NCBI RefSeq assembly: GCF_000023945.1
Contig: NC_013158.1
Span: 1,612,001 to 1,676,000 of the forward strand
Origin: Halorhabdus utahensis DSM 12940
GTDB lineage: Archaea > Halobacteriota > Halobacteria > Halobacteriales > Haloarculaceae
Reading direction: 5' to 3'
Length of the DNA: 64,000 nt
Shown here: in pieces, positions 39,933 to 47,426 of the stretch
Numbering within the stretch: the first letter of the stretch is position 1
Layout of the letters: every line of letters begins with the position of its first letter
Program-made: the position numbers and the translations under genes
Notes under the pieces: model-generated
What the model was told of the DNA's origin: nothing
Databases searched by the model: none
Seen by the model: only the letters and a program-made list of their open reading frames with translations

Positions 39933-40979
39933 ATGGAACTGGTCCTGGAGGGAGACGTGGTTCGCGGCGGCAGCGAGGCTCGCGAGCGCTTCTACGATTC
40001 GCGGGGCTACGGCCACGTCGACGGCGGCGGGCTGGCGCTTTCGCCTGTCGAAGCAGCCCATCTTCTCTACCGGGGCGATGTCGAGCACATCCGGGACGGG
40101 AGAAGCGACGAGGCTCTGGATTTCCAGGCACTGCTCTCCTCGGCTGCTGTCTCGGAGATCGACGTTCTCGTCTACAAGGACCTTCGGGACCGGGGATTCT
40201 ACCTCTCGCCCGCCCGCGAGGGCTGGGTCGACGGTCCGTCCGGGACCGACTTCGTGGTTTACCCCCGCGGACAGGGCCCCTGGGACGACGATGTCGCCTA
40301 TCGGATCCGGGCGATAAGTGAGCGGACGGCCGTCTCCGCGGCCACGCTGGGCGATAGCGTCCTGGCAGTCGTCGACGAGGAGTCGGCGATCACCTACCTC
40401 GAGACCAGTCACCCCGACATCGCGGGCTCGTCGACCACGGATCTGCCGAGCGGTGTCGCGGCCGACCTGCTGGGCGATCGCGTCCTGGCCCCGGACCCGC
40501 CCGAAGCACTCTATTTCGAGGGGTTCTACGGCCAACCGCTCGACGACGAGGCGGGCGAGCCCCTCCAGCTCTCGCTGATCGAGGCCGCCGCGCTGGCCAG
40601 CCAAGGCGTGCTCGACGTCGAGGGTGGCGCGGACGCGATCGTCGAGTGCGGTCGCGAGGTCGAAGGCGAGCGCTTCGACCGGCGGCTGGCGGTGTATCGT
40701 GCCCTCCGCGAGCGTGGGGTCGTCCCCAAGACGGGCTACAAATTCGGCGCGGACTTTCGGACGTACGCCGACGTCGAAAGTGTCGACTCGCTGGGCCACT
40801 CCGAGTTGCTCGTGCGGGTGTTACCGGCGGATCACGCTTTCACGCCGCGCGATCTCGCGCTTGACGTCCGACTGGCCCACGGCGTTCGCAAGCGGATGGT
40901 GTTCGCGCTGGTGGCGGAGGCTGACGCGGACGGCGACCCCCGAATCGAGTGGCTCGAAGTCGGGCGACTGACGCCGTGA
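39933..40979 (+). CDS. endA: tRNA-splicing endonuclease (fused alpha2 form)
   Basis: A 348-residue protein with two tandem endonuclease modules. The N-terminal repeat (residues 1-165) is non-catalytic. The C-terminal repeat carries the active-site tyrosine in TGYKFGADFRTY, the histidine in GHSELLVRV and the lysine in GVRKRMVFAL. This long form assembles as a homodimer and cleaves bulge-helix-bulge motifs in tRNA and rRNA precursors, such as the processing stems of the rRNA operon in this window. It lies just upstream of the trpS leader. Confidence 0.94.
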   Translation: MELVLEGDVVRGGSEARERFYDSRGYGHVDGGGLALSPVEAAHLLYRGDVEHIRDGRSDEALDFQALLSSAAVSEIDVLVYKDLRDRGFYLSPAREGWVDGPSGTDFVVYPRGQGPWDDDVAYRIRAISERTAVSAATLGDSVLAVVDEESAITYLETSHPDIAGSSTTDLPSGVAADLLGDRVLAPDPPEALYFEGFYGQPLDDEAGEPLQLSLIEAAALASQGVLDVEGGADAIVECGREVEGERFDRRLAVYRALRERGVVPKTGYKFGADFRTYADVESVDSLGHSELLVRVLPADHAFTPRDLALDVRLAHGVRKRMVFALVAEADADGDPRIEWLEVGRLTP

Positions 40980-40990
40980 CGGATAGAAAA

Positions 40991-40999
40991 CAATTAAAC
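40991..40999 (+). promoter_or_regulatory. TATA box of the trpS leader
   Basis: caattaaac is centred near 40995, predicting a transcript start around 41021-41024. That is 160 nt upstream of trpS but exactly at the ATG of a 26-codon ORF. Confidence 0.6.
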
Positions 41000-41023
41000 C
41001 CCTGCTGGTGGAGACGTACGCAC

Positions 41024-41104
41024 ATGGCGTCCACTTCCCCCGACGTCCGTCGCTGGCACCCCCGGGAAGTGGACAGTGTCGCCGTCGCCGGCCGGCGGGC
41101 GTAA
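41024..41104 (+). CDS. Candidate leader peptide 1 of trpS (26 codons, one Trp codon)
   Basis: ATG at 41024 coincides with the predicted transcript start, so the ORF would be leaderless. It reads MASTSPDVRRWHPREVDSVA and ends VAGRRA at a TAA (41102-41104). Its single Trp codon (41054-41056) lies in the loop of an 11-bp hairpin formed within the ORF. The composition is Arg-rich, unlike the acidic host proteins. The ORF is proposed from position, structure and the Trp codon; no conservation data were available. Confidence 0.42.
   Translation: MASTSPDVRRWHPREVDSVAVAGRRA
41029..41074 (+). promoter_or_regulatory. trpS: Hairpin in the trpS leader
   Basis: gtccacttccc (41029-41039) pairs perfectly with gggaagtggac (41064-41074). 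The 24-base loop holds the Trp codon. A second stem cgggcg/cgcccg (41096-41101 and 41110-41115) encloses the leader-peptide stop codon. A translating or stalled ribosome would open the first stem. Confidence 0.6.
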
Positions 41105-41122
41105 CTCGTCGCCCGGCGGGCG

Positions 41123-41188
41123 ATGCTCCCTCCGCTTTCTCGGCCCGGTGGCTTCGAGCACCAACCACACGAGACACGACACCAATGA
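41123..41188 (+). CDS. Candidate leader ORF 2, overlapping the trpS start (ATGA)
   Basis: A 21-codon ORF (MLPPLSRPGGFEHQPHETRH plus Gln) whose TGA (41186-41188) overlaps the trpS ATG (41185-41187). This arrangement is typical of translational coupling or re-initiation. It has no Trp codon and no obvious Shine-Dalgarno sequence. Confidence 0.35.
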   Translation: MLPPLSRPGGFEHQPHETRHQ

Positions 41189-42798
41189 CGCGAGACTCAC
41201 ACACCGACGACGAACCGACAGACGACCGACGGCGTGAACAGGCTTTCCCCCGACTCCGCACTGACGGCGGCGCAGCCGCCGGTGCCGACGACACGACGCT
41301 TGATCCGTGGGGCTCCTCGACGGTCGCCGACTACCGCAACCTCTTCGAGGAGTTCGGCATCGAGGAGTTCGACGAAATCCTGCCCGATGTCCCTGCGCCC
41401 CACTATCTGATGCGCCGCGGGGTCATCTTCGGGCACCGCGATTACCGGCCGGTCGCCCGCGCCATGCGCGACGGTGACCCATTCGCCGTCCTCTCGGGAT
41501 TCATGCCCACCGGCGACCCCCACATCGGCCACAAACTCGTCTTCGACGAGATCATCTGGCATCAACGCCAGGGCGGGGACGCCTACGGCCTGATCGCCGA
41601 CCTTGAGGCCCACGCCGCCCGCGGGCTGACGTGGGACGAGATCGACGAGCATGCCCGGGACTACATCCTCTCGCTGCTCGCGCTGGGCTTCGACCCGGAG
41701 GAAGGGACGCTCTATCGACAGTCCGAGAACCGCGAGTTGCAGGATCTGGCGTTCGAACTCGGCGCGGAGGCCCGCTTTGCGGAGTTCGAGGGGATCTACG
41801 GCTTCGACGGCGAGACCGACGTCAGTCACATGCAGAGCGTCGTGACCCAGATCGCCGACATCCTCTACCCGCAACTCGAGGAACCCAAGCCGACCGTCAT
41901 CCCGGTGGGTCCCGACCAGGACCCCCACATGCGCCTGGCGAGAGACGTCGCCGCCCGGATGCGCTATTTCGGCGTCACGAAGGCCTACGCCTCCTTCGAG
42001 ACCGACGACGAGGAGCGAGCGCTGCTTGCGGAGGCCTACGAGACGCTTGCCGGCGACCATCCGGGAGAGACGATCCGGTGTGGCGACGCCGCGACCTACC
42101 TCGACAACGAGCGTGATCGCGACGCGACTGACGGTGGCGCGATGACCAAAGATCGTCTCATCACGATGCTCCGGGAGGCCGGCAAGGAACCGCTCCGTCC
42201 CCGCGTCCGGTTCCTCGACCGCAACGCCACCGAGGAGGCCTTCGAGGCCCTGATCGAGGCCATCGACGGCGAGAAGCGCGTCTACGACGAGCACATCGAC
42301 GCCTTCGAACTGGATCACGAGGCCGCCGCGGCACTCGCCCGCGAGGTCGAACTCGCCAACGGCGGGTACGGCTTCCTGGCCCCCTCCTCGATCTATCATC
42401 GCTTCATGACCGGTCTGACCGGCGGGAAGATGTCCTCGTCCGTCCCGGAGAGTCACATCAGCCTGCTCGACGATCCCGAAGACGGCTACGACAAGGTCCG
42501 GGCGGCGACGACCGGCGGCCGCGAGACCGCCGAGGAACAGCGCGAACTCGGGGGCAAGCCCGACGAGTGCCCGGTCTACGAACTCTACGCCTACTTGCTC
42601 GCGGATGACGACGACGAGTTCGCCACCGAGGTCTACGAGGAGTGTGCCGGCGGCGAGCGCCTCTGTGGCGGCTGTAAGGAACAGGCTGCCGAACTGATGG
42701 AGTCTTTCCTCGAAGATCACCAGGAAAAACGCGAGGAGTGGGCTGATCGACTCGACGAACTCGATATCGACTTCGATTCGAGCCGTAAACGAACTTGA
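41185..42798 (+). CDS. trpS: Tryptophanyl-tRNA synthetase
   Basis: A 537-residue class I synthetase of archaeal type. HIGH-like motif PTGDPHIGH near residue 110, KMSKS-like GGKMSSS near 415, and VIPVGPDQDPHMRLARD in the nucleotide fold. An acidic N-terminal extension precedes the catalytic core. A CxxC-like CGGCKEQAAELM lies near the C-terminus. It charges tRNA-Trp. The start at ATG 41185 is the first in-frame ATG after the leader and overlaps leader ORF 2. Confidence 0.95.
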   Translation: MTRDSHTDDEPTDDRRREQAFPRLRTDGGAAAGADDTTLDPWGSSTVADYRNLFEEFGIEEFDEILPDVPAPHYLMRRGVIFGHRDYRPVARAMRDGDPFAVLSGFMPTGDPHIGHKLVFDEIIWHQRQGGDAYGLIADLEAHAARGLTWDEIDEHARDYILSLLALGFDPEEGTLYRQSENRELQDLAFELGAEARFAEFEGIYGFDGETDVSHMQSVVTQIADILYPQLEEPKPTVIPVGPDQDPHMRLARDVAARMRYFGVTKAYASFETDDEERALLAEAYETLAGDHPGETIRCGDAATYLDNERDRDATDGGAMTKDRLITMLREAGKEPLRPRVRFLDRNATEEAFEALIEAIDGEKRVYDEHIDAFELDHEAAAALAREVELANGGYGFLAPSSIYHRFMTGLTGGKMSSSVPESHISLLDDPEDGYDKVRAATTGGRETAEEQRELGGKPDECPVYELYAYLLADDDDEFATEVYEECAGGERLCGGCKEQAAELMESFLEDHQEKREEWADRLDELDIDFDSSRKRT

Positions 42799-47108: not shown

Positions 47109-47340
47109 CTCTTGTTGTTCAATATTCCACTCGAACTGTCTTAAAGGCATCCGTGAGTCAGCCTGGACCTGGATCGGGTGCTCTCGCAACGTTTTTCTGT
47201 GATGACTTACCAACCCATGGATATGGCACCGAACGCCCACGCTCGGTGGATCGCCAGCCAGTCGCGAGTCGGTCGGGCGTTCGGCTTTTTTGACGCAGCC
47301 TGACTGTCGGTGGACTCGGGGGTCAGATTGCCCCCTTGAC

Positions 47341-47379: not shown

Positions 47380-47426
47380 TTGAGAACCGTTATCCGAACA
47401 ACACACGGTACTCCGACAACAACTGA
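47370..47426 (+). CDS. Candidate leader ORF overlapping the pheS start (TGATG)
   Basis: An 18-codon ORF, MSEIENRYPNNTRYSDNN, whose TGA (47424-47426) overlaps the pheS ATG (47426-47428) by one base. It contains no Phe codon but is unusually rich in Asn (5) with two Tyr. No Shine-Dalgarno is seen. Confidence 0.33.
   Translation: MSEIENRYPNNTRYSDNN

Follow-up and report, generated by a model that had tools for sequence, protein, structure and literature searches.

In a 64-kb window of the Halorhabdus utahensis genome (3,116,795 bp; all coordinates are window positions), the tryptophan--tRNA ligase gene trpS follows a short leaderless open reading frame (ORF). The ORF carries a tryptophan (Trp) codon in the loop of an RNA hairpin. 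We consider it likely that this leader is a ribosome-mediated attenuator of trpS, which would sense charged tRNA-Trp through the Trp codons of its leader peptide. Comparison of leader sequences among haloarchaea supports the coding of the ORF, its enrichment in Trp, the hairpins called here A:B and P, and the linkage to trpS. We infer ribosome stalling, an alternative B:C pairing, a termination step and the sign of the regulation.

The leader ORF and its linkage to trpS

The first-pass annotation, made from the sequence of the window, had proposed that the leader at this site senses Trp or charged tRNA-Trp, with a second ORF (ORF2) passing ribosomes on to trpS. The 26-codon leader ORF, its Trp codon, the perfect 11-bp hairpin, a GC-rich stem covering the stop and ORF2 all lie where it placed them (Table 1). 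The predicted TATA-like element was found as TTAAA at 40994-40998, with its centre 28 nt 5' of the leader ATG. The repeat exceeds chance: when the segment was shuffled 20,000 times, a perfect 11-bp repeat so placed appeared in 10 shuffles. The window has 323 ORFs that start with ATG and are 12-35 aa long; two of them have a 10-bp hairpin placed likewise, and both contain Trp. Conservation across genomes is far stronger evidence than these shuffle statistics.

Table 1. Features of the trpS leader region in the H. utahensis window.
Feature	Position	Strand	Description
B recognition element (BRE)/TATA promoter element	40985..40998	+	GAAAACAATTAAA region; TATA element centred near -28 relative to the leader ATG; kept in 7 Halorhabdus
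Leaderless leader-peptide ORF	41024..41104	+	26 codons; product MASTSPDVRRWHPREVDSVAVAGRRA; ATG 41024; stop TAA 41102-41104
Sole Trp codon of the window leader	41054-41056	+	within the hairpin loop
Arm A	41029..41039	+	GTCCACTTCCC; 5' arm of the hairpin with the Trp codon in its loop; A:B covariation
Arm B	41064..41074	+	GGGAAGTGGAC; pairs with A or, alternatively, C
P hairpin	41075..41127	+	outer stem AGTGTCGCC 41075-41083 / GGCGATGCT 41119-41127; inner GC stem; GG-CNTMA-CC type loop round the leader stop
Element C	41125..41141	+	GCTCCCTCCGCTTTCTC; conserved pyrimidine tract; TCCGCTTTC 41131-41139 complementary to B
ORF2	41123..41188	+	21 codons; ATGA overlap with the trpS ATG 41185; not generally conserved
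trpS (TrpS-A type)	41185..42798	+	equivalog match NF008928; Shine-Dalgarno (SD)-like motif absent in front

The leader is present in all seven Halorhabdus genomes searched, each of which has preserved the start codon ATG, arms A and B, and the stop codon TAA. Their alignment shows exchanges between CGG and TGG. Sister leaders end in AGWRA or PGWRA before the stop, and that of H. salina reads RRWHPWEVDSVAVAGWRA. Relatives carry more Trp codons, and the window copy, with one, is therefore a reduced form. We examined the regions upstream of 80 named trpS loci and found further leaders, such as MASTSTDRWRWCWQAPEVDSLAAVTRRA in Halapricum and MAASDGWRWRWQNPPEADSLVTPAAR in Halorientalis. A covariance model was then built on 15 leader copies with the A:B helix as its only structure, and the fetched copies were searched again. 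It matches 72 of the 146 genomes of the family and, among 392 genomes sampled from Halobacteriales, 178 genomes in 57 of 95 genera. When a sample of the whole phylum was searched, every match fell within Halobacteriales. Matches on the antisense strand are a reflection of the near-palindromic A:B. A lack of the ORF or of the Trp codon in relatives would have refuted the first-pass annotation; instead, the comparison shows the ORF with its Trp codons to be conserved across the order.

As in an attenuator, the gene downstream is the cognate one. Among the 128 segmented leaders, 122 precede a TrpS gene (87 TrpS-B and 35 TrpS-A) and six precede neither; one leader lies before trpD. TrpS-B, a paralogue of TrpS-A, is about 31% identical to it and matches NF008927. 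Most genomes with TrpS-B also have the leader (137/145). The distance from leader to trpS is 126-208 nt, with a median of 162. TrpS-B lies on large plasmids in several genera.

Some individual loci are worth recording. Leader and TrpS-B are found together on Haloferax and Natrinema megaplasmids (loci L248, L249 and L251, and plasmid matches). In H. mediterranei, the neighbours of the TrpS-B gene with its leader are an integrase and a transposase. The covariance model gave no match in Halobaculum lipolyticum (L250), although TrpS-B is present there.

The Trp codons themselves indicate that the leader is translated. The short 5' ORF is enriched in cognate codons across the leaders, with a mean of 2.25 Trp per 24.4 residues and at least two Trp in 119 of 133 leaders. 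The 289 TGG triplets of the loop fall in frames 0, 1 and 2 as 280, 2 and 7, and the loop length is preserved modulo 3 in 116/128 leaders. Outside the window copy, the leader typically reads WRWRW; this is the conserved motif, and not the RRW-HPRE suggested earlier. In nine leaders the ORF stops before arm B (mostly after WRWR), and in five it runs through B in a different frame. These leaders nevertheless preserve most of B and of the ACAGT block behind it, so B acts as RNA, and the constraint on the ORF lies in the Trp codons. The comparisons give good support to the coding of the leader ORF and to the A:B hairpin.

The promoter signals point to a transcript that begins with this ORF. In 133 leaders, A+T maxima occur at -36..-34 and -30..-26 from the leader start codon, which fits a transcript start at the leader. 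In Haloferax volcanii, PMC4983044 lists a 23-aa upstream ORF (uORF; mass 2743) within the long 5' untranslated region of the tryptophan--tRNA ligase gene HVO_A0127. The listing marks no second transcription start site at this gene. The trpS-B leaders of H. mediterranei and H. larsenii have 23 aa each (2703 and 2728 Da). Judged on length and mass only, the HVO_A0127 uORF matches these leaders. The placement of the TATA element and the mapped H. volcanii uORF support a transcription start at or near the leader ATG.

The start of trpS is at 41185: the H. utahensis frame is open upstream, but in H. salina a stop lies immediately before this point, and the open frame there is 540 aa. An N-terminal extension of TrpS from GTG 41008 was rejected, as its frame is closed in H. 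salina. We also discarded a second TrpS in the H. utahensis genome: other matches are short and weak (25-37% identity), TrpS-B was not found, and this trpS is the sole TrpS found.

RNA structure of the leader

In the covariance alignment, which is fitted to the A:B helix, 94.8% of the A:B cells are paired. Shuffled partners give 87.8% and slid versions at most 48.5%; 71 cells are changed on both sides. Shuffle controls, here and for the other pairings, leave the relatedness among the sequences in place. A separate segmentation, in which A was the stretch near the start that best complements B, agrees. More precisely, the A5-B6 position is GC in 81 leaders and AT in 41, and 127 of 128 are paired against 101 expected.

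The second hairpin, P, joins the ACAGT block to a GCTC block. Of the 1152 cells of its stem across 128 leaders, 963 are paired; shuffled versions reach 897 on average and 925 at most, and slid versions pair in 26-53%. The loop of P (about 41095-41108 in the window) has the form GG-C[N]T[AC]A-CC. Most leaders keep this form, including those whose stop codon lies elsewhere.

Downstream of P, element C is 81% pyrimidine and 40% T in loci with a mean of 65% GC. Its longest T-run is 2-3 in most leaders, and runs of at least four occur in 30/128. Pairing between B and C is possible in most leaders, with only positions 3-5 and 2-6 clearly above expectation. Folded alone, the H. utahensis leader forms A:B and P. 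With nt 1-45 masked, the pairing switches from A:B to B:C. As mutually exclusive structures, A:B is strongly supported and its competitor B:C modestly. We tried B:C as a strongly covarying helix and rejected it, the covariation being modest only. The second half of the device would be the P stem and tract C, with B:C as a possible alternative, and this assignment is better supported than one based on ORF2.

Proposed mechanism and alternative readings

In the mechanism that we favour, transcription would begin at or near the leader ATG. With ample charged tRNA-Trp, or with no ribosome, A:B would form round the Trp codons and P behind it, and C would stay single-stranded. Through the P hairpin and free C, the nascent RNA could then be terminated, or undergo 3'-end cleavage, ahead of trpS. 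When charged tRNA-Trp is scarce, a ribosome would stall on UGG and cover A. The freed B could pair with C, extending P. This B:C pairing would block termination, and trpS would be made when charged tRNA-Trp is short. Among the termination sites of H. volcanii are hairpins and T-stretches that carry a TC dinucleotide (PMC7237163), which makes termination at C plausible.

Several observations weigh against this mechanism. One is that the leader of the window has only one Trp codon. The covariation of B:C is modest and partly phylogenetic, and its duplex energies barely beat those of shuffled C. Masking nt 61-95, as for a ribosome on the stop codon, gave B:C too; the off state presumably needs release of the ribosome and re-formation of A:B. 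In Methanococcus, aCPSF1 binds a U4 tract (PMC8716108). The T-runs of C are mostly 2-3, below this tract, so the terminator would be weak or of another kind. We found no expression data under Trp limitation. Finally, none of 30 other trpD upstream regions checked has the leader, and we rejected a general Trp regulon on this ground. One locus (L210, genome G159) has a Trp leader, MLSAFRSWSWRWYRSGKRTVS, 5' of trpD, the only biosynthesis gene found with a leader.

The same Trp-codon leader and A:B switch might instead act on trpS translation or on RNA stability, for example if P and B:C alter ribosome loading or nuclease access. We regard this as possible, although clearly less likely than attenuation by termination. 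An element C without a strong U-tract, the bounded leader-to-trpS distance and the absence of an SD in front of trpS in 110 of 112 cases, which would allow non-canonical loading, are consistent with it. On the other hand, the trpS start lies well 3' of C, and the region between them is poorly conserved. The last stretch before trpS is also mostly unpaired in the masked H. utahensis folds.

A protein- or tRNA-binding RNA element, such as a T-box-like structure or a regulator site with the ORF as its by-product, is improbable. The conserved P loop and the ACAGT and GCTC blocks would suit such an element, but the blocks are largely explained by the P stem. Moreover, TGG occurs in a single frame from a start codon at a fixed distance from the TATA element. 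An Rfam search of 40800-41400 gave no family match up to E = 1, T-box included.

Translational coupling through ORF2 is more doubtful still. The first-pass annotation proposed that ribosomes re-initiate at ORF2 and reach trpS through the ATGA overlap, with the Trp codon tuning this step. Coupling of this type is known in Haloferax (PMC12548453), and Halorhabdus, Halapricum and Haloarcula copies have an ORF2 with the overlap. Nevertheless, an overlapping ATGA is found in only 16/34 TrpS-A leaders, close to the one third expected by chance if trpS starts with ATGA anyway, and in 9/78 TrpS-B leaders. The ORF2 start codon (NTG) is ACG in one genome (G002), and the ORF2 frame ends early in H. salina. 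As the overlap is not conserved, we rejected re-initiation at ORF2 as a general mechanism. The idea of a Trp or charged tRNA-Trp sensor thus holds for the leaderless Trp-coding ORF and the conserved hairpin round its Trp codons, and fails for the ORF2 step.

Least probable of all is a stand-alone Trp-rich small protein with incidental RNA structure: the in-frame TGG and the loop length kept modulo 3 would fit it, but the C-terminal half varies, the RNA arms stay in the nine leaders that stop before B and the five that change frame, A:B shows compensatory changes, and the position before TrpS is bounded.

Known systems and related leaders

In the trpL leader of E. coli, a ribosome that stalls at Trp codons leaves the second arm free to pair with the third. 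It has four segments that pair as 1:2, 2:3 and 3:4, its translation starts from an SD, and it controls biosynthesis. The attenuator proposed here resembles trpL in that a stalled ribosome would free the second arm for a third. It differs in the lack of a separate 3:4 pair, in the P hairpin added between B and C, and in its target, trpS. T-box riboswitches are tRNA-sensing leaders of bacterial aminoacyl-tRNA synthetase genes. Likewise, the haloarchaeal leader belongs to a gene of this class and would sense tRNA charging; unlike a T-box, its proposed sensor is a translated ORF, and it has no Rfam T-box match.

Trp-leader attenuators have been predicted before trp operons and trpS in Streptomyces and Corynebacterium (PMC1262725). 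They share with the haloarchaeal leaders a short ORF of repeated UGG, trpS among the targets and proposed alternative pairings. However, they are bacterial and have a GC-rich terminator with poly-U, whereas the haloarchaeal version is leaderless, places its Trp codons within the A:B loop and has a weak pyrimidine tract where the bacterial ones have poly-U. In H. volcanii, uORFs with mapped transcript starts precede the tryptophan--tRNA ligase gene and pheS (PMC4983044, Table 2). The passages of that paper that we read give no interpretation in terms of Trp or Phe codons, hairpins or attenuation, and "attenuat" is absent from its text. The literature that we searched, with incomplete coverage, yielded no case of archaeal leader-peptide attenuation, and this absence is weak evidence.

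Attenuation by a stalled ribosome requires translation close behind RNA polymerase. A 2021 Haloferax study states that nearly nothing is known about transcription-translation coupling in archaea, and RNA polymerase co-purifies with ribosomal proteins there (PMC8576121). Haloarchaea are genetically tractable, and a conserved Trp-codon switch in them would open the coupling question to direct test. It would also show that an attenuator can reside in a leaderless mRNA, and would provide a function for the mapped H. volcanii uORFs.

The A/B/P/C module also occurs before other genes, whose identities were judged by eye. In L165 and L167 (genomes G089 and G091), a leader reading MMSAT(E/G)LGPVLWHGS.. 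is followed by a putative ABC transporter. The module also lies 5' of a putative SAM methyltransferase gene (L201) and of a putative GNAT acetyltransferase gene (L214).

A leader ORF with phenylalanine (Phe) codons, MAPNAHARWIASQSRVGRAFGFFDAA, lies in the same window at 47223-47303 (+), before the pheS start at 47426. For H. volcanii pheS, a 26-aa uORF is listed in PMC4983044. Of 30 other Halobacteriales genomes, 23 likewise have a leader before pheS in which Phe codons are clustered, in many cases as GFGFF.
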